NCBI GenBank assembly: GCA_948144175.1 | Contig: CANXME010002009.1 | Span: 310,001 to 374,000 of the forward strand | DNA: 64,000 nt | Direction of reading: 5' to 3' | Origin: Closterium sp. NIES-65 | Lineage: Eukaryota; Streptophyta; Zygnematophyceae; Desmidiales; Closteriaceae | In this document: positions 111 through 63,700 of the stretch, in pieces | How positions within the stretch are numbered: the stretch's first letter is position 1 | Layout of the letters: every line of letters begins with the position of its first letter | Notes under the pieces: generated by a model | Database searches by the model: none | Told to the model about the DNA's origin: nothing | Seen by the model: only the letters and a program-made list of their open reading frames with translations | Translations under genes and position numbers: made by a program

Positions 111-3100
111 GGTGGGGCGCACATGCAATGAGCCAAAGACGGAGCAGGCAACACGCAGAGCAATGCGATCCGTGCACTCGTGCACATGCAAGGATACGGC
201 AATCCAGTGGGCAACAAACAGAGCACTAGGGACCCGTGTCCCTGTGCACACGCAGCCCACCAGGCGTACCTGTCTGGGCGGCACACTGACCTGTCTGGGC
301 GGCACACTGACCTGTCTGGGCGGCACACTGACTGTGGGCAAATCCTCTGCCGTGAAGCCCAGCGGCTCCAGCACCTCCGCATAGCTGCACGGTAGGCAGT
401 GGCACGCGGCGGGGGGGGGCAGGCAGGCAGTGGAGCCATGAGGAGTCGGTGGTGGTGGCGAGTGCGGCAGGAGAGAGGAGCAGAGAGAGAGGGAGGCGCG
501 GAGGGCGGTGGGGAACATAAGTGCGGAGGCCCAGGATGGGGAGGGCAGGAAGGGAATAGGAGAAACAAATGGCAGTACAGCGAGGGCTGCATAGGGCCGA
601 GCAGGAGGGGGAGGGGGCAGGGGGGCCAACAGCGGATGTGACAAGCGGACCAGGCGGAGCAGGGGGTACCGGGGGGAAAGGGGGGAGAGTAGGGAAAGGG
701 AGACAAGGAAAACAGGTTGAATGGGGACGAGAGGGCGCAGGGGCGAGGGGGGGCACGGGGGAGAGGAGGGGCGCACCTGTCCTTGGAGACGGCATAGGGT
801 GGGCCGCCCTCGTGTCCATCGATCTGCAGGCCAGGCGCACGCAGCGAGGGGCAGACACACAGCCAGCCAGCCGTGCGTCGTGAGCAGACAGCGGTGATTA
901 GTGTTTGCCCATAGGGAGCACACTCGGGTGCATTCATGCGTGCAGGTAACACGAGGGCAAACATGAACATTGAGTGACAGGCGTGCATGGATACGCATGG
1001 TGAGAGGTGCACGCACGGGGAACATGAGAGGGTGCAATGGATACGCACGGGGAACATGAGAGGGTGCAATGGATACGCACGGGGAACATGAGAGGGTGCA
1101 ATGGATACGCACGGGGAACATGAGAGGGTGCAATGGATACGCACGGGGAACATGAGAGGGTGCAATGGATACGCACGGGGAACATGAGAGGGTGCAATGG
1201 ATACGCACGGGGAACATGAGAGGGTGCAATGGATACGCACGGGGAACATGAGAGGGTGCAATGGATACGCACGGGGAACATGAGAGGGTGCAATGGATAC
1301 GCACGGGGAACATGAGAGGGTGCAATGGATACGCACGGGGAACATGAGAGGGTGCAATGGATACGCACGGGGAACATGAGAGGGTGCAATGGATACGCAC
1401 GGGGAACATGAGAGGGTGCAATGGATACGCACGGGGAACATGAGAGGGTGCAATGGATACGCACGGGGAACATGAGAGGGTGCAATGGATACGCACGGGG
1501 AACATGAGAGGGTGCAATGGATACGCACGGGGAACATGAGAGGGTGCAATGGATACGCACGGGGAACATGAGAGGGTGCAATGGATACGCACGGGGAACA
1601 TGAGAGGGTGCAATGGATACGCACGGGGAACATGAGAGGGTGCAATGGATACGCACGGGGAACATGAGAGGGTGCAATGGATACGCACGGGGAACATGAG
1701 AGGGTGCAATGGATACGCACGGGGAACATGAGAGGGTGCAATGGATACGCACGGGGAACATGAGCGTGAAGAGCACCCCGTGTGGTGCCAGCAGCTCCGC
1801 TGTCTTGGCCGCCCACTTGCCCCTCAGCGATGGCGGCAGCGCACAGAAGAAGCTGCACGGGGCGACGAGGGCCGTGGGGAGGGACAGGGGGGCATGGGGG
1901 CATGGAAGGATGGTGCGTGGGCCCGCGAGGGCGTGAGGGCCATGGCAGGGGCGATGGGGCATGTGGGCACTGACAGGGAGGGCCTGGATGAGCGGAAGGG
2001 GGGCAAGATGGGGTACGTGCTCTTAACCAAGATGGGGTACGTGCTCTTAACCAAGGCAGCAGAGGAAGAGCAGGCGTGGCAGCAGAGGAAGAGCAGGCGT
2101 GGCAGCAGAGGAAGAGCAGGCGTGGCAGCAGAGGAAGAGCAGGCGTGGCAGCAGAGGAAGAGCAGGCGTGGCAGCAGAGGAAGAGCAGGCGTGGCAGCAG
2201 GCGTGGCAGCAGGCGTGGCAGAAGGTGTGGCAGCAGGTGTGGCAGCAGGTGTTTGGGGCGGGGCTCTCACGTGTAATGCAAGGGGGTGGAGCAGCGGAGG
2301 GCAGCGGAGCCAGCAAGGGGGTGGCATGCAAGGGGTGAGAGGCAGAGGGCGGGGCTCTCACGTGTAGTCAAAGACTGCATCGACGGGCTGTGCTGGGCGA
2401 TACTCAAAGAAGTCGCCACACACAAACGCCATGGCCGCCCTGTTGGATGCCCCCTCCACCCGCTGAGAGCAGCAGGTTGAGTGTTGACAGGGATGAGAAG
2501 CAGGGGGGAAGGAGTGTTGCAAGGGATGAGAAGCAGGGGGGAAGGAGTGTTGCAAGGGATGAGAAGCAGGGGGGAAGGAGTGTTGCAAAGGATGAGAAGC
2601 AGGGGGGAAAGAGTGTTGAAAGGGATGAGAAGCGGAGGGGAAAGAGTGTGGAAAGGGTTGAGAAGGTAGAGAAGGTTACGCGGGTAGAATTTGAGCAGCA
2701 GGGGAGGGCAGCGGAGCCAGCAAGGGGATGGGCGAAGAAGGGGAAGGGCGAATGGGCGGCAGGAATCAAGCAACATGAGTGGAGTGAGCTATTGCGCGGC
2801 CATGTCACGTGCGCCCACCTTCTCTGCGTGCGCCACAGCAGATGGAGCGATGTCAAGGCCCGTCGCCTCCCTTCCATTCGATGCAAACGCCTCCACGTCA
2901 TAGCCCTGCCATGCCATGCCATGCCATGCCATGCCATGCCATGTCATGCAAGCATATCCAACATCACCCCATGCCATGCCATGGCATCCGAGCAGTGTCA
3001 TGGTATCCAGAACCCCCCCGATGCCATGCCATGACATGGACCCACGTGATAGCATGAGGTGATGTGCCAACGGCATTTTAGACAATCGGCCAAAGAGCAA

Positions 3101-4256
3101 TCATCGCACATGCATTGGACTTTCCCCCCGCTTGCTACAGCCCTGTTCACATCTCCCATAAAACACCCACTGTGCATTCCCGTGCTACAGCCGGGCGCAA
3201 GGCACTCACGGTGCTACAGCCCGGCGCAAGGCACTCACGGTGCCACAGCCGGGGACGAGCACGCGGCGGATGGAGGGCGGCAGGTGCAGCGGCGACCCCT
3301 CTTCCGCCGCCACGAGCGCCGCTACAGCCGGCGTCACGCCGCCCAGATCCCACGGCGTCGTGCTCGCCTGCCACGCCTTGTCCCACCCGCCTGGCCCAGG
3401 CGCAGGGGAGGGATAAAACTTAGGGTTAGGGATTCCCCGAGGGATGCGGAGGGATAGGGAGCGGCGAGTGGAGGCAATTGGGCGTGGTGGGCGGAGTGGA
3501 GCGAGATGCCACGATGGATGGCAATCAACCACGCCAGCGCCGGGGTACAGAATGATTCGGCGCGCCTTAAGGTGCGGATGAGGAGGTGCGAATGGTGGAG
3601 GTGCGAATGATGGAGGTGCGAATGATGGAGGTACGAATGATGGAGGTGCGAATGATGGAGGTGCGAATGATGGAGGCAAGCAGCGCAGATGCGCTGGCAC
3701 GGACGCAGCCAGGGCGGACGGAAATTACTGAGCCTGTGCAACGGTGCGTCACAGCGGTCACGCACAGTCCACCCTGTCGGCGGTCGGGAATCCCAGCAAC
3801 CCTGCGTTGGCGCCAAGGATTGGAATTCGGCTCACCGACGGGTTCATCGGCCAGCAGCTGCCGCACCTCCATCATCCCCGGAATGGTCTTCGGCGCGTCG
3901 AACGCCATCACCTCCGACTGTGCGCCAGGCGCGGACGCGGCGTCCGCTGCCCCTTCCGCCGGAGTGGACGGGTGCTCAGTCATGCCGCGAGCGGTGAGGG
4001 TGCTCGCGGACGAATCGAATTGCACGGAGGGATTTGCGGAAGACGCGAAACGATGAATCACTGAGCCCTTGCGGATACGAGTTTTGTTAGATGAGGGATG
4101 CCCGCGACGGTAGAATCCACCGGATACGCACGGAGCGGACAACAAACTGGAAGGCTGGAAGTCGCTCCGGGAACGACAGCTACTAGAGATAGAGGGGAGC
4201 CTGGTGAAGGCGACGCGGCGATAATAGGACGAGGCGGAAAGGAATAGGGTTGACAT
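1..4256 (-). CDS. HOL: HOL/TPMT-like S-adenosylmethionine halide/thiol methyltransferase, partial at the left edge
   Basis: Likely transfers methyl from S-adenosylmethionine to halide or thiocyanate ions, as in the plant HARMLESS TO OZONE LAYER family. Phase-consistent exons on the minus strand: 4256-3836, 3390-3239, 2905-2819, 2462-2362, 1852-1753, 823-777 and 384-about 270; the final exon was not found and may lie off the window. Exon 1 is a 140-residue Ser/Arg-rich leader, probably organellar. Exon 2 carries GWDKAWQAS, TPWDLGGVTPAV and the SAM motif VPGCGTGYD, whose last residues come from exon 3. Later exons give GLDIAPSAVAHAEK, CGDFFEY, VFDYTFFCALPPSLRGKW, GVLFTLMFP and DGHEGGPPYAVSKDSYAEVLEPLGF, all in the family order. 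Every intron is packed with minisatellites, and three donor sites are themselves tandemly repeated, so the mature 3' end is uncertain. The family call is firm; the exact substrate is inferred. Confidence 0.85.
269..331. repeat. Triple 21-bp tandem repeat carrying a 5' splice site
   Basis: Three exact 21-bp units lie at 269-289, 290-310 and 311-331. Read on the minus strand each unit encodes VSVPPRQ followed by a CAG|GT donor context, so exon 7 of the HOL-like gene has several in-frame alternative ends 21 nt apart. Being a multiple of three, the unit preserves frame whichever donor is used. Confidence 0.85.
1037..1764. repeat. 32-bp minisatellite of about 23 copies, derived from an exon end plus its donor site
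   Basis: Twenty-two essentially identical 32-bp units run from 1037 to 1740, followed by a partial unit to 1764; degenerate units precede it from about 984. On the minus strand each unit contains the last codons of HOL-like exon 5 (CTC ATG TTC CCC) joined to GTGCGT, a usable 5' splice site. The exon end and its donor have therefore been amplified as one block. Confidence 0.95.
2007..2054. repeat. 24-bp tandem duplication in a HOL-like intron
   Basis: Two exact 24-bp copies lie at 2007-2030 and 2031-2054, within the intron between exons 4 and 5 of the minus-strand gene, directly next to another repeat array. Confidence 0.85.
2059..2246. repeat. 23-bp minisatellite, six units, followed by 12-bp derivatives
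   Basis: Six 23-bp units start at 2059, 2082, 2105, 2128, 2151 and 2174. Shorter 12-bp units made of the second half of the motif follow. On the minus strand the array is a string of CTGCC and CTCTTCC pyrimidine runs inside an intron. Confidence 0.9.
2492..2656. repeat. 33-bp minisatellite, five units
   Basis: Units start at 2492, 2525, 2558, 2591 and 2624 and accumulate mismatches to the right. The array lies in the intron between exons 3 and 4 of the HOL-like gene, just beyond the exon 4 acceptor. Confidence 0.9.
2906..3040. repeat. ATGCC pentamer microsatellite and scattered derivatives
   Basis: A run of ATGCC pentamers occupies about 2908-2945, immediately outside the HOL-like exon 3 acceptor. 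Dispersed CCATGCCATG copies continue to about 3040. Confidence 0.8.
3181..3244. repeat. 29-bp tandem repeat containing the HOL-like exon 2 donor
   Basis: Two near-identical 29-bp units at 3181-3209 and 3210-3238 are followed by a third start at 3239. On the minus strand each begins with the end of exon 2 (CTGTGGCACC or CTGTAGCACC) and its GTGAGT donor. Copies beyond the first have an in-frame TAG, so only the first donor keeps the protein open. Confidence 0.85.
3575..3678. repeat. 15-bp minisatellite in the first HOL-like intron
   Basis: About six to seven copies of a GTGCGAATGATGGAG-type 15-bp unit occur in the intron between exons 1 and 2. Confidence 0.85.
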
Positions 4257-4469
4257 TTCTAAGAAGCCATGCGGATGGTGCGAAAATGTGAACGACCCCT
4301 AGATTCACCACAAGTCCAGCCTTGCGAGTGCTGTGAAACAGCGGAACTGTTTGTAAAAATTCGTCACGCCCAGAGACGTCGCGAAAGGTGGGCCTGCTGA
4401 AATTTCCCCTCAATAGGAGCTTGGGGAGTGCGGAGTGGAACGAAGGAACAAACCCTGTTTGAGATGTTA

Positions 4470-4968
4470 GGGCGCTTCACCTGAGGGGCGGAAGGCCAAA
4501 ATCCGAACCGACGTATCAGTTTGACTCTACGAACAGTATCCCAAATGAGTTCGAACACAAATACGTACAATGAGCGAATGTGACACAGGCCATCACAGGT
4601 GACGCCATCGCTATTCGCACACGCGGTCTGTTCGAACACAGCGACGTCGCCCACAAAAGAGCGACGTCGCCAAACATTGGGTCCCTCGCTTGTGTGTTTT
4701 CTCGCAAACGTTCATGGGCGACCCGGAAGACTGTGGACCAATCATATCAGTCGTTTGTGCGGAATTGTGTGTCACCTATCCCAACCTCTTCGAACAAACG
4801 TGTTCGAACGTGCGGGATGATGAAAATCGTGCTTGAGGTGACAGCTCTGTTCAAATTGGCGAAATTGTGCTTCGCGACGTCACGATCACCACTACGAACA
4901 TAGGCGAAACGAGTAACGTTTCGCCTGTTCGAACGACTGTGTTGTTCGAACCGACAGGTGAAGCGCCC
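4470..4968. mobile_element. PIF/Harbinger-like MITE, 499 bp, flanked by TTA
   Basis: The ends are perfect 14-bp inverted repeats (GGGCGCTTCACCTG on the left, its complement on the right) flanked on both sides by TTA (4467-4469 and 4969-4971). A TTA target duplication with a GG-starting terminal repeat is the signature of Tourist-like MITEs of the PIF/Harbinger superfamily. There is no coding capacity; internal TTCGAAC motifs recur. The structure is clear; the superfamily is inferred from the TTA. Confidence 0.85.
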
Positions 4969-4971
4969 TTA

Positions 4972-6858
4972 GGGTCTTGATGAATCATTCCAGAATGCCC
5001 AGGTCATGCAAACAGAATCCTGAGCTCCTCAGGGCTGGCGAACGTACCCTGTAAATTCAGTACTTCGCTGAATATATACCTTTCTTACGAGGGTGGTATA
5101 CTAATAACGTAAACAAGAGTCAGCAGCACGCGTGTTGCAACCAAAAAATTTTGCAGTGAAGTGGGTTGCTGATACAGTATTATGAGGAAGGAACCAGGAA
5201 ATGCAAATCGACTAGACGGAAGGGGCCTTCGGCCACAAAAGACAAACAGCTGTGAGCCAAGCCAAGCCAGAGTTCCTTTTGTCCTGGGAGAAGTCGGATC
5301 GCAAGTTGTTAATCCTTCCACTCCCCAGTGACGATTGCAACAGTTCCACAGTGGCTTTCCAGTGCTCTTGGAAAATTGCACTCAGTGAAATTACGGAATC
5401 TCTTTGTCCAGCCAATGAAGCTCGGTTCATTTCAACCGGGCCAGTCATTGAAGGGCAGTCTGATTGCCTTGTACGGCGACACTTGCCTGACCTCGTCAAC
5501 GCTCATCCGCTGGTTTTTGTGGAAGCCACGTCAACGAATTATGATTTTCACTTAGCTGTGTTTAGAGCCAATATCTGGGAGCCATGTCAAGAATTGCCGA
5601 AGATATCACCTGCGCGAGTGATGAATGCTTTGGAGTAACCCTAACCACTAACATCTGTTTCCAATGTCCCGCTGGCGGATCGTAGGGATTTCCGTGAAAC
5701 AAGGGCTGCCGGTAATCATTATTTTCTTACAGCTTGATTCTGGTGTCTGTCGCGGAAGAAACATTGCCTCCACGTCATCCGAACCGCACCACACACACAG
5801 CCCACAGCCCTCACAAATTTGCGATTCGGCTGCCATCCTCTGTGCGCTCCATTTCTTGCAGCTCAGTCTTGTGTGCCTGCCTTGCCTATGATGTTCTGCT
5901 TGCGCCACAGCAACCTCAAGTGCTTGGCCTGCTCGACTGGTGCAGGCACAACCAGCCTCTCTCAGCCTCAGCTTGCAGAGTCAGCGACGTGCTGGGAGCA
6001 CTCGTGCGATGCATCCGTGGCTAAGAGCAACTAGACGTCGCTGTTCATATATCTTTTATCACTCTCCCAGAACTTGGTGAAATGCTTGGCTGCGCGGACC
6101 AGTTTACCTTCAAGTTAAAACTCTAAGTAGCATTTAGCTTGACGTGCAGAAAAGTTTTTTTGAATCTGCTTGCACGCATTACTTACTCTAGTAGCATTTA
6201 GGGAGTTACTTCGACGTAGGGATGCAGCAGCCATCAGCATCGCTCTTCATAGACGCCTGGAGGCGGCATCCCAAATTTGTTTTTGGTGGGGGGTGTTTTG
6301 GACAGTGGTAGTCAGGAGTATACATTTCGGGCTGCACTGTGGCTACACTCGCTACTGACCCCCTACTCCAACCAATCTCCAACTACACACCCACTCATCC
6401 AATGCTCCGATGGCTCCAACAGAGTCCCTACAGTGTAAATCCAAGTGGACTCGTCACTACCTGGCAACTCCATCGCCACTCCACAGATTGGGTATACGTG
6501 TGCTCCGGCGATTGCACGCCCCAACCTCAAACATCCAAGCTCGCGCAAAAACGGCCCAACCAATCAAAAAGATTGCCAGGGTTCTGCCTTGGCAAACGGA
6601 ACATGCGCTTTAAACGGATTCTGGATGCTTATACAGTGCAAAAATAAATGAATGACTCCGAATATGACGACATGTCCATGAAGAATTTACGGGTAACACA
6701 ACTGTGTCGGATTGGCGTGCAATTCCTTACAGCAGTGCGAGAATGCCAGCCCCCCATTGATCAGCATTAGGCATTTACACACGCTCACTGGTCAAAGTTG
6801 TTGCAACTTTCCAGCGGCACACCTGACAGGTCAATCACATGATTTGATCAACCTAACT
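4972..6858. other. Intergenic stretch without a supported gene
   Basis: Both strands hold only short ORFs, several lacking an ATG, with no recognisable domain. The base composition is more AT-rich than in the flanking genes. I see no repeat array or RNA gene here. Confidence 0.5.
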
Positions 6859-6859
6859 T

Positions 6860-12252: not shown

Positions 12253-12982
12253 TAGCGGTGCTGCTGCCTTCGTACGCGAGCCGAAACCTAGGGAGACGGC
12301 GCGTCATATAAGGGGTGAGACTGTCGGCTGCTCTTTCTCTGCGCTCGCGGTCCAGCAGGGTATGATGGTTACGTGATTACCCCACAGCATATTTGATCGA
12401 AACCCTAAGAGCGTCTTGCGTACCTCGTATTCCTGTGTTGGATGAGTCGACCTGCCCATTTTGAGTATGAAAACACTTCGGTTGGTTGCGTTTTGTTTTC
12501 GAACCTTTACGGTAATGTGCGGTGAACTTGGCTGGTTGCCTGGACCCCGGACACCATACAATGGGGTTCGTTTCACGCTCTACGGATACCCCAACGGTGT
12601 GTGTTCCGACCGTAAGGTTTGGCATCCATCCCTCATGTTTATGCAGTTCCTAGTAGTTGTCTACGTCGCTTTGCACCGCACTGCACTGTTCTCGGTACTC
12701 AAAACGCACATTGGCCTGAAACCATTTTCGACTCCCTGCAAGATCTATCATCTGCAGGGTAGATGCGCACGATCGGGCAGTGAAGCTGACGTGGTCAACG
12801 TCGTCAAAACCACAAAACAATCGAGACGGGAACATACTCGATGCTTCGGTACATCTTCGCAAATTGCAATATAAACGTAACAAAACTCATACACACATAG
12901 GACCTTAACACAACAATAACTTAGACAATGCTGCAGCAGACCAACAATGCGCAATAACAACCACAATTATCATCAACGTGGC
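12253..12982. other. Spacer between the transposase and the 248-residue gene
   Basis: This 730-bp stretch separates the transposase start from the stop of the next minus-strand gene. Only short overlapping ORFs are present and none is recognisable. Confidence 0.5.
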
Positions 12983-15402: not shown

Positions 15403-15642
15403 GTTTCGCTAGACAAGTGACGCCCCTTCCGCCCACTCTACTGCATTATATGCCATGGAGTGCCGTAGAGAGACAGAGTGGGGAACTGGTGGTAAATGTC
15501 TCGGTTCTCTCAAGTTGGAATGTGAACCGTGGATTATGGAAATGTTGGATAAGTCATATCGTAACCGTTAAATGGCGGTGAACGAGATCGTGCGTTGGAT
15601 TAACCCTCCAGTTGAACGGTTCGAGCGTGAGGAGTTATCCAA

Positions 15643-25684: not shown

Positions 25685-28600
25685 CACGCATGCACCCACA
25701 CACGCTCACACACACACATACACACACACACACACTCTCACGCATGCACCCACACACACCCACACACACCCACACGCACACACACAGGTGATCATGACTG
25801 ACCTGACGGAGAACTGGAGGAGAGCCACGTCACAGTGGAGCATCGACAGCCTGGCGGAGGAGCACGGTGACGTGGCGCTGAAGGTGTCGGTGGCGAATGG
25901 GCACACGGTGCGCATGAAGCTGAGCGACTACCGTGAATACGTGGCGGCACAGCACGATGAGGAGCCGCTCTACATCTTTGATCCAAAGGTGACTCTGCTT
26001 CATCACCATTCCCAGATGGGGCATGTCAAATCAACCCAGGTCAACCCTTCTCACCCCTGTGTGCTGCCATTCGCCACAAGCATCACCCCGCACTCCACCC
26101 CCCTTCACCCACCACCCCCGCACCCCCCCTCCTCAACACCCAACCCCCCATCCCCTTCTGCAGTTCGGAGAGCAAGCACCAGCGCTAGTCACAGACTACT
26201 CGGTGCCGCCGCACTTCACGGAGGACGTGTTTGAAGCCATGCCCGCGCTCAACCGCCCCATGTACCGCTGGCTCGTCGCGGGCCCCCAGCGCTCGGGCGC
26301 GGGGTGGCACGTGGACCCCGCGCTCACCAGTGCCTGGAACACTCTGCTCGCGGGGAGAAAGCGATGGGCGCTCTACCCGCCCGGGAAGGTGCCGCCAGGT
26401 GTCACGTTACGAGTGGATGATGACTCGGGCGATGTGGATTACGATGGGCCCACGTCGCTCAAGGTGAGTTGAGTGTTGGGCGGATTTAAAGGGACAGCTC
26501 AGCTGTTTCAGTACACTTACGGTATGCTACCTGCTCGTCCCCCTTGCAGTGGTGGCTGGAGGTATACCCTTTCCTGTGCCCGGAGGACAAGTAATGCACT
26601 GCTGAGGCCATGTCTGAGGCGCCTCAACAACCGTGCGCCTTTCCCACTCTCACCGCCCCCCCGCCTCTCCTTCCACCACCCCTTTCCAGTGGTGGCTGGA
26701 GGTGTATCCTCTCCTGCGCCCGGAGGACAAACCAATGGAAGTCATGCAGCGACCAGGCGAGACCATCTACGTGCCGTCAGGGTGGTGGCACAGCGTGCTC
26801 AACCTCGACCTCACCGTCGCTGTCACGCAGAACTTCGCCTCTTCGGCCAACTTTGACTGCGTGTGCCTTGACATGGTACCCGGGCGGCACAGGGGCGTGG
26901 CGCGCGCTGGGCGACTGGCGATCGAGGCCGGGGAGAAGTGGGACGAGCGACTCAAGGCCATGTATGGGGAGGGCGAGGAGGAGGAGGATGAGGATGAGTG
27001 GGAGGAGGTGGAGGACGGCGAGGAGGTGGAAGGGAGTGAGGAGGGGGAAGAGGAGGGGGAAGAGGAGGGGGGGGAAGGGGAGAGCGAGGGGGAGGAGGGG
27101 GAGGGGGGCACGTGGAATGGCATGCAGGGGCGGCTGTCAGCGTTGGCAGCGCAGCAGTTTCTGAGCGAGGGGGGCAACGAGGGGTGGTCCATGCCTGAGA
27201 TCCGTATCCTGCTGCGCTCGCTCTGGCCCGCCCAGCCCCAGCTTCAGGATCGCATTTGGAAGGTGCGGCTCGCTGCACTGCCGTGCTGCCATGCTGCCAT
27301 TCTGCCTGTGTGTGTGTCCATCTGTGTGTGTGTCCATCTCTGTGTGTGTCCATCTGTGCTCTCACCTCCTCTGTCCCGCTGCCCCACTCTCTACGCACGG
27401 ATCCTATCATTCGTCCCATGATCCTGGTTCGCCACTCGCCCTCCCTCCTCTGAGTGTGCAGAACGCGTGTCTGTGCATGGATGCTGCCACGTGGCACAGG
27501 CGTGTGGTCACAGTGTGCCAGGCACACGGCCTGCCCGCCCCCAACGGCCTGGACGCCCTCCCCCTCGGATCCGGATCCAATGCTGTGAGCCCACCCACTC
27601 CCCCTCTCTCTCGCCTCCTCCCTTCTCACTCACCTCTCTCTCCCTTCCCGCTCTCCCTTGTGCTTGCTCGCGCGCTCTCACATTCGTTCTCAGCCTTCTC
27701 TGCATGCACCATTGCACCTCGCATCACCTCCCCCCCGCTCCCCCCTCGGTGCAGGTATACATGGTGGGGCAGCACGTGGTGAAGCTGTATCTGCCCATGG
27801 GCTCTCACGATGAGTCTGCCGCCACCTTCCTCGCCAAGGAGGTACCCACCACTGCACGCCCTGCCCTGCCCTGCCCTGCCCTGCCCTGCCCTGCCCTGCC
27901 CTGCCCTGCCGTGCCCTGCCGTACCCTGCCGTGCCCTGCCGTGCGTGTCTCTTGTGCGTCACCCAGGTTCTATTGCCAACTTCTTCTGCAATCCCGCTGG
28001 TAGCACCGCCCCTCCACTCCACCTCACCACCCGTCCTCCTCACAGCTATCCTTCCCTTCCACCACCACCTAAACTCATCACAATCGTTCCTCCTGCTCCC
28101 TGCACCTCCCCACCTCCCACTTCCCCCTCGCAACTCCCCCGACCCCCCTTGACTGTTTCCAGTTGGCCTTCTACCGCGAGCTCCACGCGTCCCAGTCACC
28201 CCTGCTGCCCTGCATTCCGCCCCTCGTGGCCTCGGGCCTGCTCTTCTCATCCGGGGTTGTGGACAAGAGCGAGGAGGAGAATGGTGCGAAGGGGCGGGAA
28301 GGAAAGGACGGGGCGGGGGGAAAGAAGGACGTGCAGGCGAATGGGGTGGGGAGCAACGGGCGGAGTGCAGAGGGCGAGGGCGGAGAGGCAGGGGCGGAAG
28401 GGGCGGAAGGGGCGGAAGGGGAGAAGCAGCAGGAGGGGTACCCGTTTGAGGTGAGCATAGCACCGCAAGAGGAGCAGCTGGTCGCAGCACAGTGGGACGG
28501 GCTGACCGAGCACCGGCCTGTGAACCCCTTCGAGGAGGCACAGGGGGCTGTGGCGCGAGGGCGGGCGGGGAAGAAGGGGAAGAGCGGCAAGGGGAAGGAG

Positions 28601-41211: not shown

Positions 41212-41271
41212 TATTGGCGCTGAGTGATGGGCGCAACAGTGTTTGTCTCCTCTCAACAGCTGTACATCAAT
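41212..41271 (-). repeat. Degenerate duplicate of the DEG1 last exon
   Basis: On the minus strand this segment starts ATTGATGTACAGCTG and resembles the true last exon at 41420-41349 (GTTGATGTACAGCTG), including the LLRG codons. Its acceptor reads CAA instead of CAG and it drifts out of similarity after about 55 bp. It lies about 150 bp downstream and looks like a decayed tandem copy. Confidence 0.8.
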
Positions 41272-41348
41272 TTGTCCAGCACCAATAGATAGCCTACATC
41301 AATAACTCAGCTAGCACAGCTGAGAGAGCCATCTCCTCACGCAACAGT

Positions 41349-44290
41349 TCACCCGCTGAGCCCGTCCAGAGTGACGGGCACAACAACTTCCTCGTTCCCT
41401 CTCAGCAGCTGTACATCAACCTGCGCAGACACAAGTGCCAGTAGCTCATGTCAGTCACAAATTCATTGCCAGGAGGAGCAAAAGCCTAGGCATAAGTACA
41501 AGTGCTTCACACGCATCCACACATCCAGTCACCACAAGTAAATGCTCAGAAGGTAGTGACATGAGCACACTCACGGTCTGGCCAACTTGGCACTTATCCA
41601 GGATCTTGTAGAGGTCCGAGCCGGAATAGATGGGCTTGCCATCAATGGCCGTGATGATGTCCCCCAGCATTAGCCGCCCAAAGCTGTCTCGTGACGTTGG
41701 GCGCAGGCCCTGAGCACAACGTGCACGAGAGGAGTCACTGAGAGGGCTAAATGGCTGCAGTTGCAGCAAGGGATTGACCAATGACCCTGGTGAGCCTGAA
41801 TGCCAGTGTCAAGCTCTGCGCTGGATTCAACTGAGCTGCGTGAATACAAGTCGAAGAACAAAAGAGCTTCTCTGCTAGCGATGTGTTTGGGCAAAACGAT
41901 GCATGGGCTCACAGCCTTGGCAGCAGCGCCGTTGGGGTTGACTTCCAGCACGAGCACCCCCGAGATGCCGAGCTGATCCACCAGCTGCTCCGGTGCAAAG
42001 GCCAGGTTGAGCGCCGGCCGTGTCACCTGCCCGTACTCTATGATCTGCTCCACGATGCCACTCACCTGCCATGCACATGCCATGAAAGAGTCAGTATGAT
42101 GAGTGATATTCCAAGCACGTGTCATGAGTAGTGAGAGGATTGCGCTGAACATGGGCTGTTTGGCGTGAAACAGAATCGGCTTCTGACCCAAGCATGGGGA
42201 AGATGGGACCTGAGAGGCGGGTGAGATGGAGTGCGGGAAATCTACCTTCGAAAATTTCGTGTCGTAACGCTCAGGAATACTTACTGTGTCTACAGGGATA
42301 GCGAATCCAACGCCTGAGGATGCGCCAGATGGCGAATAAATAGCGGTGTTGATGCCGATGAGGGTGCCGCTGGAGTCGAGGAGAGGCCCTCCGCTGTTGC
42401 CAGGGTTGATGGCAGCATCAGTCTGAATCACGTCCTGAATGGGCCGTCGCGTTACTGATGTTATTTCGCGCTGCAATCCACTGAGAAAAAAGTGGTGGGC
42501 CGTGGGAGAAGACGTTTACGATTGCATGGTTGTAACGAGGGTGTATAGCCAGAGGATATGCAGATGGATGAGGAAGTGAGAGTGAAAGGAAACAGGAAGA
42601 CGAGTGGAAAAGGATGTACCTGATGACTCCTGTTGTGAGTGTGTGGTCCAGTCCGAACTAAGGCATGACAAAAGCACAAAAGAAAAGGGAAAGGAGAGTA
42701 GGGAGACAAAATATGTTCATTAGGGAAATACAGTGTGCAGATCAAGGGGAGAAGCCACATTGAGAGAATATGGCAGGCGGACAGAGTAGAGGGAGGAACA
42801 AAGATGCGAAGAAGGATGGAAGATGGGTTCAACTTCTAGAGGGGTAGGCAACAAGTTGACGGATGGAGCAGAACTCACGGGGTTGCCGATGGCGAAGACC
42901 TTCTGGCCGACCAGCAGGTCCGAGGAGGAGCCTACTGGCAGCGGTCTTAGCTTCTCAGGGGGCGCATCAATGTGCAGCACTGCCACGTCCTTGTTGGGAT
43001 CCGCTCCCACCACTGTCGCCTCGTACACTGACTGGTCCGATAAGGTCACTCTGTTAGGGACGATGTTGGGAGCGGAGAAAGAGGAACGATAAGAATAGTG
43101 CTCTTGTGGAGGTCTTTCTGTCACTATCCATTGCCCCATTCTAGCTTGGATGTGCAACAATTGTCAATTCAGTTCATACGCATCTGCATGAATAACTTCC
43201 GTCCTCAGACCATACCTGAGGTCAGTGGCGCGCCTGATGACGTGGAAGTTGGTAACCACATGGCCTTCCGTGTCCCATAAGAAGCCTGACCCTGTCCCCT
43301 GAGGCACCTGCATCACATCCAGTGTGAACGCGTCCTTCCTGCAACGACAGTCGCATGCATACAATGACACACACACATTTTCCCATGCACAGTCAGTCAC
43401 ACGCACATGCTCACATCACACTCACATAGAGATGGTCATGTACAGACCAACACATACAAGCACGCGAGCATGAATGCATTAGAACAGAACGTGCATGCAT
43501 AATCATTGAGATATGGACACGGATATGTATTTGGTGAGAACCATCTCAGTTCGCGTGCACAAGTTCAGTGATACAAGTTCAAATTGCCATGCGATGCCAA
43601 TTCCTGACCTATGTTTCATTGTGAGTTCTCCAGACTCCTTACATCCTCGTCGATCGAGCGGGCACGCACGTACCTAGTGGCGAGGTTCGTTATGTACACG
43701 ACGGACGCGGTGTTGTCATTGAACAGCTTCACAGTCGCCAGCTCATCCGCCATAAGCTTACGTGGCGGTGCCACCACCGCACCAGCGTATGCCGGCATGG
43801 CAGATGACAGGACTGTAGCAGTAATCGCGACAGACGCTGCAAGCCGTCCGAATTGGTCGCATGCTTCGCGAATACTATGCGACGGGTTTGCGAACAGCTT
43901 TGAAAAGGATTCTCCTAAGCGACGCTTCATCAAGTCCAATGACTCCTTCAGCTCTTGACCTGGTGGTGCTCTAGAAGGAACATCACGCGCTAAGGACCCA
44001 CTCCTCTCGTGGTGTGCAGGTTCATTTTGACCCGCCGAGGCAGCTGTGACTAGAGCCCTTCTGTGAGAGGCTACTGAGACGACACGAGGACGGCACGGCC
44101 CTGGACGGAGGAAAGAGGAGGCAAATCCATGGCTTCGTAAGCTTGCAATAAATGCTATATTATTAGCCTTGACGAAATGCGTGGATCGAGGTGCGACATC
44201 GGTAAGTGGTCCGCTTCTGGCGGAAAAGATAGGATGCGATGCTCCCGGCGATGAGTGCACACGAAGCGAGTGCACAGGCTGAAGAGCCAT
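41349..44290 (-). CDS. DEG1: DEG1 thylakoid-lumen serine protease (501 residues)
   Basis: Eight phase-consistent exons: 44290-43674, 43338-43216, 43050-42879, 42657-42620, 42480-42285, 42065-41913, 41709-41575 and 41420-41349. DegP/HtrA-family ATP-independent endopeptidase involved in photosystem II repair and lumen protein quality control. A Ser/Arg-rich chloroplast transit region is followed by a thylakoid-type signal ([21 protein letters not shown] in two parts: [11 protein letters not shown] and [10 protein letters not shown]). The trypsin-like triad is intact: His238 (VVTNFHVIR), Asp268 (NKDVAVL), Ser346 ([10 protein letters not shown]). One PDZ domain ([32 protein letters not shown]) closes the protein, with the DEG1-like tail [12 protein letters not shown]. 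It is divergently arranged with the Kir gene, start codons 563 bp apart. I know of no unusual feature in the protein itself; the oddity is the decayed duplicate of the last exon downstream. Confidence 0.95.
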
Positions 44291-45938: not shown

Positions 45939-48900
45939 CGAGTGACTGACATCCTCTTTGTTCTTGTCTGTGGACCTGTTGTGGCAATATTTTGTACACC
46001 TTAAACACAATCTGTGTTGTGAAATCAATCAGTGTTCAGTCCGCCATGACCATTGGTAAGCAGTGTTGTGTCACTTGCTTCCCATTTTCAACATGGTGTT
46101 ATCTTTTGCTTGCAGCCTTTGGCAGACCTCACCCACCCCTCCTGTTCTTTTCCTTCCTGCTACGCTGAATTCTTTTTGTGTGCAGGGTTTGGGGGAGATC
46201 TGGTTCCTGATCCTAACTGCTTCACACTGAACCTCCTTATCGCCCTCCAATCACTTGCTGCTTTGATTGTCGCCTATGCCTTGCTGGGGATAGTCTACAC
46301 ACGGTAAGTGGAGAGCAGGAAGCACATGTTTAGTAGAGAGATTGAGTAGGATGTTTCAATCAAGATACAGTTCGATATGCTGACATGCATATCACAGACA
46401 CGCTCACCGCTTGTCAGGCAACAATGATGTGATATGTCTGCTTTGTCATCCGTGCAGGTTTGCCCTTCCCTCCCGTCGAGCTTCATCACTCGTGTTCAGC
46501 CAATGCATGGTGCTCAACGAGGTGATGATGTTTGTTGCTCCTGCTGTTCTAGTGCATCAGAGGCTGCCATGGCTTTCCTTTCCTTGTCTTGACACCCTGC
46601 TGCTACTGTATTTGCTTTGGCTTCAATTTGCGCTATGGCAGGAAGACGGAGTGCCTCGCCTTTCATTCCGGGTTGCTAATGTTCGCAAGCACCAACTCAT
46701 AGAGGTAGGCACCAACTCATAGAGGTAGGCACCAACTCATAGAGGTAGGCACCAACTCATAGAGGTAGGCCCCAACTCATAGAGGTAGGCACCAACTGGA
46801 ACAGCACGATCAGGTTGTTTGGGCTTGCTGACTGCTAACTGTTGATCATCAATCTTGCAGGCACATGCACAGCTGCTGGTGGCAATCAACAATATCATGA
46901 GTGCAGAGAATGAGGCGCTCTTCAAGTTCTCCAATCTTCCGGTCAGTCTCATCTCATCGTAGCTGTGAAGATTCCCGCTGCAGACCCATGTTTCGGTTGA
47001 ATGGCATCATGGGCCTCTTGGTGCGAGACTGCCAGTTTTCATGATTTGTGATAGTAGCACGTTGTGCCTGTCAGTTCAAACGTCCTGCTAAGTCGTCTTC
47101 CACCCTTCCCCGTGTCCTTGCGTCGCAGATCCTAGGAGGGGGCTTCGTTTTTCTTGCTCTCCCCTGCATCATCACTCATGCAATCACGAAGCACAGCCCA
47201 CTCCATGGCATGTCCCTTGCTGTAAGTCCCGTATCCCATCTCATTTCGCATCCCACCTCAGTAAGTCTTTGCTGCTGCTACATCCTATGTTCGCCCTTTC
47301 TGCTTGCCTGTGGTCCACATGAATTTGGAGCATGTTGTCCAAGAATGCCTTTAACTGTCACTTTTATTCCAACAACTCTCTTTCACTCCCAAAAGTCCCA
47401 TCCCGCATCTTCTGTTCCACATGGATGTGATTGTAGATGATGGAACGCGCTGACATTGAGTTCCTTGTGCTTATAGAGGGCGTAGATGCTCCAACATCAG
47501 CCAAGCTGCAAGGTGCTTATGACCCACTGTGTAGTACCTCGTGCTAAGATGTTTTGCAAATGCGTCTGAATAGCTTTATTGTCTTCTTCCGACAGCTGCT
47601 GTCTTCACACCCCGAAGCACTTTTCTGGTTGCCCAGTTAAGTTAACTACCGCACTGTGTCCTTGCTGTTCCTCCCATGTGCACCTGTGACTTCAGCCCGA
47701 CATTCCTACTCGCCTTGTGACATCAAGTTCAACCACCGCTTCTCGTGAGCTGGGAGCACTTACCTCTTCATTACGGCCACACACTTTCTTCATCACTCTT
47801 TCTTGATTTATTAAATGTCTTTTGTAGTTCCTGTGAAATTGCTGAGGGTTTGTTTCTTTGCTTGCTCATCCTTTTTATGTACCCATCTGGTTCGTTCATT
47901 GTGGCAGCACCATGGTCAGGCGGTCACCAAGTGGAATCCGATGCGTGGTGAGTTGCCATATCTGTTGTTCCATCCTTTCTGAGCCCAATCTCCTGTTTGT
48001 CCTTTCTGTCTATCCGCCAAGCATCTACACTCCCGCTCGTTTGTTCGCTCCACACACGCTCGCACACATGTGCACGAAGTATTTTCTGGTCCTTCTTGCT
48101 GCTTGCAACATTTCAGTTGTTGTCCATTCCACCTAATCAACACTCGTGTCCCCCACTGCTTGTGCAGGACTTCACCAAGTTTCACGACGTCCAGCCTGTC
48201 CCAGCTACTCTTCGCCGCCCCCACTTCCTCCCCCACGCTCCCTCCTGGGAAAATCTCCGCAACCTCTCCTCCCTCTCCTCTCTCCCCGGCGTTCTCCGCC
48301 ACCCCACTGCTGTCTCAACCGACAAATCAGGTGCCATTATGGGCCGAAGGGATGCCCCTCACCCCTTCCCAGGCCCTGCTGACTCTGCTTCTGCCTCTCA
48401 AGCTTCACTGGCTTATCCACCCGTGATTTCCGCTGCTGGTGGTGGTAGTGGTGGTGACCCTGCTCCTGTTGCAGCTGACACGATTCGAAAGAACTCAAGC
48501 TTCATGAACATCCTTTCTCTTGGATTTGGGCCTGGGTCAGGCTGGGGAGGTGGGGTATGGGGGAGTGGAGTGTGGGGTGGTGGAGTGTTGTGGAGCGGAG
48601 GAGCAGGCGCAGGAACAGATGAAGGGTCAAGAGGAACAGTAGCAGCAGGGAGAGGGAGTTTACCAGCCGCTGGGAACACGGCTAATGATGTGGTCCGTGG
48701 AGGCAGTGTGTATGCAAGCACATCTGGTGTTGCTGCTGAAGACTGGGGAAGAGTCCGTGAATGCAGAGCTGCAAGTGACTCTGCAGCTGTTGGGGAAGGA
48801 GCAGGAGGAGGGCTAAGGGGTGGGCAGGGTCACAATGGCGGGGCGATGTTCTTGCCTCTGGCCGGCATGGAGCATGAACTGTCCATGGCCTCTCTCCCTC

Positions 48901-50077: not shown

Positions 50078-50415
50078 GCAATGATACTGCAGCGTCATGG
50101 GCTGGAAAATGGAAATGTGGATCTGTATTGCTATTGGCCTGTATGCATAGTGTAAATAGTTCTATTTTCCATGTGCATATCCTTGATCGAGAAGGTAGCA
50201 GAACGATGCATTGATTCGGCCCTATGCTTACCGGATCGACGCAATGTCGAAGCACTTCGTCTTTCAAGGTCCAGTCACCAATGCGATTTGGTTGCCTGTA
50301 TTTGCAGTCTTCCCGTCCAGGCTCTCTTGTTAGATCCTCTGCTGGTCACCCTTACTTACAAAATCTGTGTGCATCCTGCACTTCTAGCAGTATAGCATCC
50401 CTCATCTCTTGCAGT
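50078..50415. other. Spacer between the Kir and aminotransferase genes
   Basis: Holds the Kir 3' untranslated region and the promoter or leader of the next gene. No motif was identified. Confidence 0.5.
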
Positions 50416-57953: not shown

Positions 57954-60401
57954 ATGGACTCGTCGCTTGCACGGAGTCGCGTAACGCCGAGACCGTCTCA
58001 TCTCCCCGCGACCATGCTCTCGCTCCTTGTCCTCGTCGCATCTTCCTCCCTTCTCCCCCATCCGGCTCGATCGTCCAGCGCACTCCTTCGGTCCCGTGCG
58101 AGCGACGAGTGGGCAGATGCCGCTGTGCGGTGGCTCATGCGACAAGCGAACAGCTCTGGCGACGGTATTGTACGTCGCTCCCTAGTCGGAAGTCGGGCAT
58201 CAGCAGGTTGCGACTATCGAAGAGGGAGGTAAGCTCCGCGTGGATGTTGCTTTCATGCTTACTCTCCTCTTAGACTACCTTTCTACACCTCCCCGCACCC
58301 CGAAATTCCCCTCATTCTTCCTACCCATGTTGTTCTGAAGAGCCTCATTTGAACGCTGAGCATCTGGCATCTCTCCCCTTGAACTTCTTCACACTCTTGT
58401 CAAGCACTCCGCAACCCACCAATGTGCGCTTCCCCCCTCGATCTCACCTCGCAATCCCAACCGCCCTTCCCCAACCGCTCCGCGTGCGCAGCTGGGTTCG
58501 CACGTCCGCCATCCCCAACTACAAGCCGCCCTACGCCAGCGGGTGCGCGGCGGGCTTCTCATGTGACACTGTCGGGCGGAACCCGGCCGGATACGTGTGG
58601 GTCCCGGCGCCGCCTTGCTCGTACGACCGATGGAGGTACGATCAATGGATTACGAATGCTTATTTTTCCCCATTTCTTCCTCCTCCTCCATTCGTCGCCC
58701 CCTCCCCTCCCCCCTTTCCACCCCATACGAGACCCATGTGTTGATTTGATTCTTGGCTCCCTTTCGTGCGGCGGCAGATTCAACCCCAAGACGTTTCTCG
58801 AGACCATGCGGAACAAGATCGTTGCGTTTGTGGGTGATTCGCTAAGCGACAACCTGCACGCGTCCGTCCACTGCATCCTCTCCGCATACACAAAAATTGA
58901 GGTGCGCGTTCGCGAATTCCGAAGTGAATTCTCTCGTCGAAGCACGAATCGGCCGCGCTTATCCCCTTATCAACGAATCATTAGCCATCCCATCCTGAGT
59001 AGGCTAACTAGGAATAAAAACCCTGTTGCTTTTGCTCCGTCGCCCCCATCCTCGTCGGCCCAAGCCAGCCCCACCAACCCACTCCACCCCAATCCACCCC
59101 AATCCACCCCTCCCCGTCCCCACCACCAGTTCAAGAAGTCGTGGCTAGGCGGCGCGAGGCCAGTGGGGTCGCTGCACGCGGCGCAGTACAACTTCACGCT
59201 GCTCTCCATCAACAGCGGCTACATCGTGCAGAGCCCGCGATACGTGAGTCACCCGCCATACGTGAGTTGCCCCCCATTTGTGGCGAATCCATCTTCTCTT
59301 GAGCACGCCTCCCTCCCTGACGTTTCCTCTCGCCTCCCTCTCCACTTTTCCCCCTCCCTGCTTCCCTCCTCCGTTCTCTCCCCCCTCCCTACGTCCCCCC
59401 TCCATTCTTCCCCCCCGTGCTTTCTTCTTCCGTGCTTCCCCCGTGGCTGCTTTCGCCTTACTGATTCTCCCCTCCTGCTCACCGTGTGCCTGTTTTCCCC
59501 TGGCCATTACCACCCCTGGCCGCTTCACCCCTGGCCAATTACCCCCTGGCCGTTTCCCCCCGGGCGCAGTACAAGGATCAGACGCAGCCATACGTGGTGA
59601 ACCCCAAGTGGGCGGGCATTCTGCGCTACACGCACTCTATCATTTTCAGCGCCGGCCACTGGTTCTTCCACCCGGTATGCCCCATGCTCTCTGGTTCTTC
59701 CACCCGGTATGCCCCGTGCTCTCTACTTTTCCACCCGGTATGTCCCATGCTCTCTGGTTCCCCCATTTGTTATGCCCCATGCTTTCTGGTTCCCCCATTC
59801 GAAATGTAACGCCTGTAAGCGCAGTGTGATCCCACTGGTTCTCCCTTCGCATCTCCTCCCACTCATTCATCCCATCTACCTCGCCCCACTGTATCCCATC
59901 CCATTGTTGAATTACATTCCACTCCAATCATGACTCACCAATCCCATCCATCCCACTCTCTTCCCCTCATACCCTTCTGCTCCTCAGCCAAGCTCTAAGC
60001 TCGGCTCCAACCCCAATTGGCAGCCCATGGGGGCATACCGCAAGGCCATGGGCGTTCTATATGACTATTTTGATAAAACACCCTACAGCGGCCTTCCCAT
60101 ATTCATGACCTTTTCCCCAATTCATGCCGGGAATGCTTGCGCCACCGCCAATGCCCCTTTTGCCAATGAGACCGATGGCGTTGCGCATCTCAATGGCTAC
60201 ACCATTCCGGCTATGAAAAAGCAAGTGTCGATATTCAAACGATCCAAGAAAATCCGGGTTGCGCAAATCACTTATATGAGTGCCCAGCGCCCCGATGCGC
60301 ATCTGCGATCAAAGAGAAAGGATTGCAGCCACTGGTGCTTGCCAGGGGTCCCTGATGCGTGGGCTGATGTGGTTTACAACATGATGATGAATTATTATTA
60401 G
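57954..60401 (+). CDS. TBL: TRICHOME BIREFRINGENCE-LIKE polysaccharide O-acetyltransferase (391 residues)
   Basis: Six phase-consistent exons: 57954-58228, 58492-58635, 58778-58901, 59130-59243, 59570-59674 and 59988-60401. A short basic N-terminus and one hydrophobic segment (MLSLLVLVASSSLLP) suit a Golgi signal-anchor. The TBL domain (CDYRRGSWVR, CAAGFSCDTVGRNPAGYVWVP in two parts, CSYDRWRFNP) leads into the esterase-like domain with the GDS motif (FVGDSLSDN, Ser161), FSAGHWFFHP, and the catalytic DxxH near the end (Asp366 and His369 in DCSHWCLPG). Members acetylate xylan, mannan or pectin in the Golgi; the acceptor here is unknown. At 391 residues it is close to family length. The exon 5 donor lies inside a tandem repeat. 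Confidence 0.9.
59661..59812 (+). repeat. 32-bp repeat, about five units, spanning the TBL exon 5 donor
   Basis: Units start at 59661 and 59693 (near-identical) and continue as three more diverged copies to about 59812. The unit is the exon end (GGTTCTTCCACCCG, encoding WFFHP) plus GTATGC donor and intron start. Later copies have mutated donors (TTATGC, AAATG). Confidence 0.9.
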
Positions 60402-60736: not shown

Positions 60737-63700
60737 ATGGCGCGCAAAGAACGGGCGAGTGCGTCCACGGCGTTAGTGGACGTGGCGTGGATGGCGGGCG
60801 TGGCGACGTGCATCAAGGTACTGCTGGTGCCGGCGTATCGCAGCACGGACTTCGAGGTGCACCGCAACTGGCTGGCCATCACGCACTCGCTGCCGCTCTC
60901 GCAGGTCCGTCCGTCGACAATCGAGATTCATCCCATTCGCCAACCCTAGAATCCAGCAGCCCATTGCGCTTCATGTACTGCCGTCTCGAGGCACCGTACC
61001 TCAGGGTTGAATCCCGACCAGACTTTTAAATCCAGATGCTGCACGCGCCCCAAAGCTTTGACAGCTCCTCCCGCTCGTTCTCCGAACAGCTCCATCTCTA
61101 ATCGTCCACATCCGCTCCTTCGACTCTCCGGGGGGGCTATCACGCGCCTCTTGCTCCCTCCGTTCCCTCGCAAACGTGTGCATCCTTGTTCTGCGACAAT
61201 GGCAGTGGTACGAGGACGCGACGAGCCAGTGGACGCTGGACTACCCGCCGCTCTTCGCCTTCTTCGAGCGCTGCCTCGCGCTGCTCGCGTGCCGCGTCGA
61301 CCCGCTCATGACCCACCTCGTTAACGGCCTCGAACACGCCAGCTACGCCACCGTGCTGTTCCAGGTGTGCAGTGCCACACCCCGTGTCATCACAAAATTG
61401 ACATTGTTGTTTCAAGGCACACCCAAGCGTCACGTCGCAACATGCCACACATCGCACCAGACAAAATCCAACCTGATTCAGAACTCAACACAGTTTATAA
61501 ACCAATCCTCCCGGCTGCTCCCCCCAGCGCGTATCAGTGATGGCCACGGACTGCCAGCTGGCCGTGGCACGAAATCCAACCCGATACAGAATCCAATCCA
61601 AGGTTTAAAATTACGGTTTTCGAAAAGTACGGTCCGTTTTTTACGGTGATTTTCCAAAAAAACGGCCGTTTTTTTGTTAGAGAACTCTGTTCACCAAGAA
61701 AAAAAAGAGAAAAACAAGGTCAAACACATTTTCAATCATGCCAACAAGCGCATACATGCAAGAAGGGGTCCATCCCCTTCATGCTGCTGCATTTCTGGTT
61801 CAATTTGGTCCCACTAAGTGGCCGTTTTGTTAGTTACAGAGGAAACACCTCCTGGAACCGTTTTAAACCGTTTTTTACGACCGTTTTTTACGGTACCGTT
61901 TTTAACGGTAAAATTTCAATAAAACGGTCGTTTTTTTTAACCCTGATCCAATCCCCCTCCCGGCTGCTCCCCCCAGCGCGTATCAGTGATGGGCACGGAC
62001 TGCCTGCTCGCCGTGGCAGCGTGGCGCTGCACGCTCGGCCTGCCCTCTCGGGCGCACCGCAACGTGGCAGCGGGGGCGGTGGTGCTGTCAGCAGGGCTGC
62101 TGCTGGTGGATCACATGCACTTCCAGTACAACGGCATGCTGCTTGCAATGCTGCTACTCTCCCTCGCCCTCCTCGCTGTACGTCTCCCCCGTGATGCATC
62201 TGCGTCTCGCGCCGCTGCTGCTTCACTCAGTCGATCGTTGCTTCTAGTGCTTCATCTCACTTAAGCTGACTCGAATTTCCCGCACCGATGGCTCGGTGTG
62301 TTGCGTGGCATGGCAGGACGGGAGGCACGTGTGGGCGTCACTCACCTTTGCGTCTCTCTGCTGCTTCAAGCACCTCTTTGCCGTCGCTGGTCCCTTCTTC
62401 CTCGTCTTCCTCCTCCGCCACCACTGCTTCCCTTCACCCCCCGCCGCCGCTGCACCGCACACCACCACACACAACAGCTCCAAACCGCCCAGACGCATTT
62501 CCCCTGGTGCGAAACAGCAATCCACTTCAGCCTCGGCGCCAGGCAGCTCCATCCCCCTCCTCACCTCGCTCGCCCGTATAGTCACACTGGGAGCAGTGGT
62601 CGTCACAGTGCTGCTTGTTTCCTTCGCCCCCTTTGTAGTCACAAACCAGATGCCCAACCTGATCGCCCGTCTGTTCCCCTTCGGCCGCGGCCTCATGCAC
62701 GCCTACTGGGCGCCCAACTTCTGGGCTCTCTACACTCTCGCGGACAAGCTCCTCGCTGCTGCAGCTTCGGCAGCAGGCTCGTTAATAGGGTCGGCAGGAG
62801 GTCCGGCGTTGGGAATGAAGGGCGGCTGGACCCGGGGGTTGGTGGGGGATGCAGTTGGGTTCAGCGTGGTGCCACAGGTGACGCCGCTGGTGTCTCTACT
62901 GCTGGTGCTGGGTGCTATGGCGCCCGTGCTGCTGCATATATGGCTCCGACCCTCCGCCTACATCTGTGGTGCTGCCAGTGACGCTGCTGACAGGGATCGT
63001 GCAGACAGGAATGTTGGTGAGAGGGATGGTGGCGAAAAGGGCGGGAGAGAGGGTAGGGGGAGTGAGCCCTATGACACGCCCACAGGGGAGCGGCGGCGGT
63101 GGAGCATACAGGCCATAGCAGCAGCGCTGGCGCATGTGTTTCTGAGTGCGTTCTTACTGGGATGGCACGTGCATGAGAAGGCAGTGTTGCATTTCCTGCT
63201 GCCGCTCTCCCTCCTCGCCTCCGCCTCGCCTGCATGGGCGTCTGAGTTCCTCATTCTCGCCACCGGTGAGTGCATGCTGCTAGCCCTTCTATCACTCTCT
63301 CAACTTTGAACCCATCATGCTTCATCTCCAGCGCACTCATTGCGCTCTTTCTATCTCTCCGCCCTTCACGCCCTTGCATTTCCTGGCCTGGCCTCGCTGT
63401 GCCTCGCCGCTGCCTGCTCACCCATCTCCATGCTTTGTTGTGTCCTGCATGCGTCATCCTCTCCCCTACACGTTTCTGACCCTTGCAACCCCCCCCCCCC
63501 CCCCCCTCTCTCCCACCCACACCTCCAGTGGCTCATTATTCCCTCCTCCCCCTCCTCTTCACACTCCCCGAGTATCCCATCAAGATCCTCCTCCTCTCAC
63601 TCTTTTCCCTTGCCCTCCTCCTCTCCTCCCTCCGCCTCTTCTCCCCCACTCTCAACCGCCAACCCACTACCTCAATGCACCAATCACCACCGCATAAAAA

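Follow-up and report, generated by a model that had tools for sequence, protein, structure and literature searches.

Small tandem duplications arising from break repair, by a patch-mediated route or by Pol alpha-primase fill-in, are known from plant and animal DNA, and the consulted part of the paper that treats the mechanism (PMC8355091), which cites work of Vaughn and Bennetzen on rice insertions, describes adjacent direct repeats similar to those reported here. The present analysis concerns a stretch of 64,000 nucleotides of Closterium sp. NIES-65 (C1711:310001-374000; this whole stretch is hereafter called the window, and positions are numbered within it), in which short segments straddling an exon-intron boundary are tandemly repeated in a HOL-like methyltransferase gene, a Kir-type K+ channel gene and a TBL gene. 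Unlike break-repair duplications as described so far in that source, the Closterium units repeatedly include splice junctions, expand to 23 copies and, in CCT/TCP1 genes analysed outside the window, often end near the splice site.

Introns can be gained through tandem genomic duplication, which, as presented in the portions consulted of PMC4974935 and PMC2891723, likewise takes place beside a splice site, but there the unit becomes the intron, whereas the Closterium unit adjoins one end of a longer pre-existing intron. None of 37 CCT duplications has a shift near the intron length, the shifts in the window behave likewise, and the donor-side tail copies of CCT genes begin 45-302 bp past the donor and not just before the acceptor as in intron gain. 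Tandem alternative donors or acceptors (GTNNGT, NAGNAG) also set several candidate sites in a row at one junction. The Closterium copies differ from these in their spacing, which goes from 15 bp to hundreds of bp, in that exon sequence is copied too, and in that distal use of the 29-, 32- and 20-bp units would shift the frame. Intronic minisatellites (variable number tandem repeats) share with the arrays of HOL exons 2, 5 and 7 and Kir a head-to-tail, near-identical organization of 20-35 bp units and, as seen at HOL exons 5 and 7, a varying copy number, but in Closterium the repeat unit contains the donor. Literature searches listed no study that describes splice junctions being repeated within introns of Closterium.

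Duplicated donors in the HOL-like, Kir and TBL genes

According to the consulted part of PMC10407611, NIES-65, a member of the Zygnematophyceae, was sequenced while haploid and has a mean intron of 485 bp and 5.0 introns per gene (Table 1), an annotation guided by RNA-seq and an assembly made with Canu and Arrow, ARCS scaffolding with 10x reads, and Pilon for indel errors; the assembly used here comprises 874 Mb in 2400 contigs. Among public sequences, Closterium sp. NIES-64 and NIES-65 have proteins that match the genes of the window at up to 99%. Exons of the HOL, DEG1, Kir, ALG8, TBL and JMJ21 genes were placed by homology and GT/AG, those of Kir also by public proteins, giving a set of 49 introns that includes a HOL intron cut by the window edge. 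Tandem Repeats Finder (TRF; period >=12, score >=40) detected 25 arrays within these introns.

The HOL-like gene model lies on the minus strand (312..3983; exons 3983-3836, 3390-3239, 2905-2819, 2462-2362, 1852-1753, 823-777 and 384-312, the last exon of the gene being outside the window) and is 99% identical to the public protein P0001. Four of its donors are duplicated. The exon-2 donor (exon 3390-3239) lies in a 29-bp unit repeated 2.4 times (3182..3250, TRF), with a 19/20 match at +29 bp that is also present in a second HOL locus on C170. The exon-4 donor (exon end 2362) has a copy 91 bp downstream at 2275-2256 (2256..2366; 18/20 by 20-base probe and 20/20 bp by direct comparison), which is an addition to the first-pass annotation of this DNA. 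The exon-5 donor stands in an array of 23.6 copies of a 32-bp unit beginning 12 nt inside the exon (1011..1764, TRF), with 23 exact copies, in agreement with the range of 2 to about 23 copies given earlier. Finally, the exon-7 donor array (268..332) is made of a 21-bp unit repeated 3.1 times (TRF), the unit being the last 21 nt of the exon and in frame. All of these lie on the minus strand.

The C170 locus carries the same four donor duplications (exons 2, 4, 5 and 7), with 10.6 copies against 23.6 at exon 5 (9 exact copies against 23), 2 against 3 at exon 7 and an equal number at exon 2. The presence of these duplications at a second locus, with copy numbers that differ at two of the four, means that the HOL arrays are no assembly slip, a concern raised with the initial description. 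The HOL family was covered by the window and five fetched loci (L029-L033), of which L029 is nearly identical to the window gene and has the same duplicated donors (exons 2, 4, 5 and 7). In L030, the exon-3 donor is duplicated and the exon-5 array is 32 bp x 2.1, and in L033 an exon-5 array of 35 bp x 31.9 is accompanied by a different, 33-bp duplication at exon 7, while no duplicated donor was found among the six tested in L032 or the three tested in L031. Since HOL loci differ in which donors are duplicated, comparison of their sequences indicates that donor duplication arose repeatedly and independently within this family. The exon-5 arrays of the three HOL lineages have units that are similar by eye and may have a common origin. 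Within the L031 locus, an 18-bp unit is repeated about 106 times (2963-4867).

On the plus strand, the Kir donor that follows ...RKHQLIE (exon end 46704) belongs to an array of a 20-bp unit repeated 5.4 times (46689..46797, TRF). In the TBL gene, also on the plus strand, the fourth donor shows a 32-bp unit x 4.2 with decayed distal copies (59659..59792, TRF), the third an 18-bp unit x 2.1 (59240..59277, TRF; 16/20 by 20-base probe) and the first modelled donor a 15-bp unit x 1.9 (58621..58649; TRF score 44, the 20-base probe reaching only 12/20); the duplications at donors 1 and 3 had not been listed before. By TRF matches, array identity is 95-100% for HOL exons 2, 5 and 7 and Kir, and 83% for TBL donor 4. 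Two other features of the Kir region were noted: a stretch of 86 consecutive T inside one of the Kir introns (45853-45938), and NIES-65 models P0121 and P0131, which join Kir exons to the downstream aminotransferase class IV gene (44856-51156) and are probably an annotation fusion.

As to which copy is used, it had been claimed that the exon-proximal one gives the family-consistent protein, and in the HOL, Kir and TBL genes this is borne out by public gene models. Read from the C170 copy, the HOL model built on exon-proximal donors equals P0001, although the alignment was guided by P0001, so that this is consistency and not proof. The case is less certain for HOL exon 7, where choosing a distal donor would lengthen the protein by 7 or 14 residues and keep the frame. 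In NIES-64, -65 and -68, Kir proteins (P0121, P0122 and P0123 among public models) read RKHQLIE-AHAQ without insert, and relatives in Mesotaenium and Klebsormidium show only substitutions at this join. The TBL protein P0138 of NIES-68 joins at all three exon-proximal donors. In CCT2, exon-proximal edges match solved CCT2 chains (one alignment shown) and the copies alter conserved residues, for example TND to TNE. Taken together, these protein comparisons show that in HOL, Kir, TBL and CCT2 the boundary adjoining the exon body yields the predicted conserved protein, the other copies being read as intronic.

Exon-edge copies in CCT genes and at acceptors in the window

A family search combined with locus size was used to pick CCT/TCP1 loci outside the window; of 11 locus groups, 8 were sampled, one locus per near-identical group with preference for smaller spans, and this choice was fixed before any sequence was seen. 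Their junctions, like those of the kinesin loci discussed below, were placed with hidden Markov model (HMM) anchors, GT/AG and frame and not from RNA, and one locus (L041) gave zero usable junctions. For 30 of 42 CCT junctions, BLAST with exon-only probes located a copy of the neighbouring exon's edge within the adjoining intron (31 of 43 with acceptor 5882 of L035, which was added after its array was seen). Exon-only 60-base probes at a score of at least 30 gave similar numbers, with 14 of 22 donors and 15 of 20 acceptors copied (29/42). Mean scores of these probes were 62.7 (donors) and 64.8 (acceptors) in their own CCT introns against 15.5 and 15.9 in introns of other genes, three listed CCT junctions having a control draw of 30-37. 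Several junctions are present in more than two copies: the L035 acceptor lies within a 124-bp x 11.5 array, one donor is found in five copies and another in a 173 bp x 2.6 array. In L035, L037 and L038, CCT exon parts are repeated about 220-370 bp away, as seen from overlapping HMM matches.

The spacing of the CCT copies is narrow. The best match falls at a distance of 117-190 bp in 23 of 31 cases, and the nearest copy does so in 26 of 31, with a median of 153 in a list compiled by hand, and 35 of 72 CCT duplications have a shift of 130-170 bp. Duplications with a shift of at least 80 bp reach a density of 1.77/kb in CCT loci as compared with 0.14-0.30/kb in six other sequence sets, a background that includes 200 kb (L009-L028) rich in mobile-element open reading frames. 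In CCT introns with both ends known, 12 duplications are donor-side, 12 acceptor-side and 13 internal (n=37), so that 24 span a junction where about 17.6 would be expected by geometry; the internal ones have units of 65-228 bp, overlapping the junction units in size. The one-sided CCT duplications argue against a nested insertion in which an entire intron arrived together with its two exon edges, and this reading was rejected.

In 25 of 30 CCT copies the resemblance to the exon extends as far as the splice site, and in these GT follows in 13/13 donors (all GTNNG) and AG precedes in 10/12 acceptors. Exon-only probes cannot pass the exon edge, and the tendency to end near the splice site rests instead on free alignments, 14 of 24 of which end within 16 nt of it (counted by hand). 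A whole unit, with both its exon and its intron portion, is seen duplicated beside itself at HOL exons 2 and 5, Kir and TBL donor 4 and in 8 of 31 CCT copies; in the other 23 CCT copies no duplicated intron portion can be recognised. Differences between the copies and the used edge fall on codon positions 1, 2 and 3 in the ratio 50:43:176, compared with about 1:1:1.7 for a copy drifting freely beside a constrained exon in a simple model of our own, and comprise 173 synonymous changes, 93 non-synonymous changes and 3 stops. Plain neutral drift of intronic copies was discarded as an explanation, the third-position excess being too big (P ~1e-9 where the intron part is not duplicated and 0.03 where it is, the pairs having been split by hand).

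Copies on the acceptor side are also present in the window. In the JMJ21-like gene (plus strand, 26539..26730), acceptor and exon start are duplicated, with the copy at 26539-26590 and the used one at 26679-26730, 140 bp apart and 88% identical over 52 bp (17/20 by probe). In the DEG1-like gene (minus strand, 41222..41419), the start of the last exon (41419-41369) has a decayed copy at 41270-41222, 149 bp downstream and past the stop (78% over 51 bp), in which the acceptor AG is not kept. Both spacings fit the CCT cluster near 150 bp. In the ALG8-like gene (plus strand, 61507..62018), the copy at 61507-61569 and the used acceptor and exon start at 61956-62018 share 63 bp at 95% (20/20 by probe); judging from its sequence the pair is no simple tandem, because it is spaced by 449 bp with a palindromic ACGGTTTTTT-rich stretch in between. 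Thus, of the eight junction duplications in six genes initially proposed, six can be retained (HOL exons 2, 5 and 7, Kir, TBL donor 4 and JMJ21), whereas the acceptor is missing from the DEG1 copy and the ALG8 pair is not tandem. The region between the ALG8 copies (61570-61955), palindromic and ACGGTTTTTTACGGT-rich, is perhaps a small mobile element. In JMJ21, intron 1 (24181-24333) is by appearance a GC-AG intron, and a 300-bp CA-rich microsatellite occupies the 3' part of intron 4 up to the acceptor (25487-25786).

Junction bias and origin of the copies

To what extent junctions are favored in the window was assessed with a geometric model, in which a unit of length p placed uniformly on an intron of pre-duplication length I and its flanking bases spans the donor with a probability of about p/(I+p), and either junction with about 2p/I. 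Duplication events were counted instead of probe matches because expanded arrays give internal positions 16/20 too: 20-base probes found a copy of at least 16/20 in the own intron for 7 of 48 donors and 2 of 47 acceptors, and intron-internal positions also reach 16/20 in many array-bearing introns. Donors are spanned by 7 of the 25 arrays as opposed to 1.75 expected (P=0.001), acceptors by none (1.63 expected) and all junctions together by 7 against 3.38 (P=0.037), with a donor/acceptor imbalance of 7/49 versus 0/48 (P=0.012); these P values are post hoc, the window having been seen before the test, and the expectation leaves out the longer recognisability of copies anchored in constrained exons compared with wholly intronic pairs. 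Without HOL, the donor excess is 4/14 against 1.10 at a TRF score >=40 (P=0.018) and is not significant at >=60 (2/10 against 0.89, P=0.22). Weak donors were rejected as a cause, since array donors are not weaker than other window donors (P=0.68).

These are real tandem duplications that include the exon-intron boundary, and we hold with moderate confidence that they result from small duplications filtered by selection, with a step of copying from a homolog added in conserved genes. Small duplications would arise throughout genes by replication slippage, already suggested in the first-pass annotation, or by break repair, either of which fits the short arrays. Those internal to exons would be purged, while intronic or boundary-crossing ones would persist because one intact boundary remains. 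The units (15-35 bp or about 120-190 bp) have a sizeable length relative to introns, so that many of the survivors would have to include the boundary, and short duplications could later expand as minisatellites. Much of the junction bias would then follow from unit length relative to intron length together with purging of exon-internal duplications, a special process being unneeded for that share. The idea of a process directed at junctions, also put forward earlier, keeps some ground in the window donor excess and in the CCT copies tending to end near splice sites, but many junction cases need none.

A further step may apply to conserved genes, CCT among them, namely repair that copies from a diverged version of the same gene, whereby the duplicate would tend to end at the splice site because homology to the diverged version stops there. 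The third-position differences, the ends near the splice site and the little shared intron suggest such copying from a diverged homolog; duplication within the gene followed by drift does not readily account for this pattern, which a copy from a diverged working version would fit. Hybridisation of lineages and recombination have been documented in the species complex for NIES-4550, in the part consulted of PMC10407611. A more far-reaching version, which we regard as unlikely, would have tracts of recombination or repair in this lineage stop at exon-intron boundaries, since diverged homologs have exons but not introns in common, failed tracts leaving extra working exon edges about one nucleosome away, so that introns would grow by spent junctions with the exon-proximal one still chosen.

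Several results weigh against the combination of selection-filtered duplication and homolog copying. The window donor excess exceeds what geometry gives, and something more favors donors. Junction duplication is real but strongly gene-dependent: its recurrence across unrelated genes, noted in the first description, holds and reaches beyond the window to CCT, but seven compact kinesin loci, selected for compactness and thus favoring short introns (13 of 17 candidate introns passed), gave 0 of 26 junctions copied and no TRF array of period >=12, and 60-base probes found 1/14 donors and 0/14 acceptors in HOL paralogs and 2/47 donors and 2/47 acceptors in window genes. With regard to the homolog step, 8 of the 24 free CCT alignments continue 40-204 nt into the intron and 2 end short of the splice site, and the third-position share is 0.645 in seven pairs with a duplicated intron part and 0.655 in the rest, an equality that copying from a homolog does not predict. 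Also, a search for the diverged donor locus of CCT2 intron 1 did not find it, the best candidates containing only C1757 and C2261, both 100% over the full query. Among two 601-bp kinesin pieces (L050 and L051), which were fetched for overlapping HMM matches and are therefore a biased sample, one shows an exon copy ending at GTGAG. In the family search, kinesin motor-domain exons were also seen as inverted pairs (C511:712945-713361, C1052:556971-557362).

Part of this evidence would be expected if mutation were tied to splicing or transcription, junctions being duplicated preferentially through R-loops, spliceosome-bound chromatin or the release of nucleosome-sized DNA at exon edges. The donor excess in the window, the clustering of CCT spacings near 150 bp shared by JMJ21 and DEG1, and the high duplication density of CCT loci are all in its favor; the excess of junction-spanning CCT duplications over geometry is, however, modest, and internal intron units overlap junction units in size, so that we consider this process doubtful, if worth keeping in mind. 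An artefact of assembly or polishing could apply to the two-copy class of about 150 bp, had Pilon forced short reads of a diverged gene copy into the contig. The usual length of short reads is near the CCT unit size. The published pipeline of Canu, Arrow, ARCS with 10x reads and Pilon (PMC10407611, part consulted) includes such a step, and the copies resemble a functional diverged version. On the other hand, the 11.5-copy and 5-copy arrays of similar unit cannot derive from one read, no diverged source for CCT2 intron 1 appeared among the best candidates, the same structure is found in C1757 and C2261 (though the same reads probably served to polish both), and the short arrays of HOL, Kir and TBL fall outside this class; such an artefact is improbable.

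That the extra junctions are functional, through splicing in steps, unproductive splicing as a means of adjusting expression, or raised U1 occupancy, could be read from the copies reaching the splice site, which keep GTNNG (13 of 13) or AG (10 of 12) even though the intron sequence past it usually differs, and from the mostly synonymous differences. However, non-conservative changes occur in the copies, array donors are no weaker than others, copy number varies among near-identical HOL loci, and constraint on third positions is not expected of a splicing decoy. We therefore judge a function very improbable. Repair templated by spliced RNA, which was among the mechanisms first proposed, or copies written from cDNA, would agree with the many copies made of exon sequence alone, but all 13 donor-side CCT copies that reach the splice site run on into GT and not into the next exon, and some copies carry intron sequence, which makes this origin hardly tenable.

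One intron holding some 23 identical donors, or about 11 near-identical acceptors, makes it possible to test in a living cell how the spliceosome ranks equal sites. Should boundary-limited copying prove true, it would tie genome divergence and hybridisation to intron growth. For gene finders, exon-edge copies with intact splice sites inside the introns of conserved genes are a warning.

A multi-copy segment in the window

Apart from these junctions, positions 6265-20638 hold a multi-copy segment of about 13 kb that is 95-99% identical to C492 and C1934. A single probe from mid-window, meant to find a homologous counterpart of the entire window, fell into this repeat. Within it, 13208-14763 has AAAACAATATAT-containing repeats near both ends, is missing from the C492 and C1934 copies and looks like a younger insertion.

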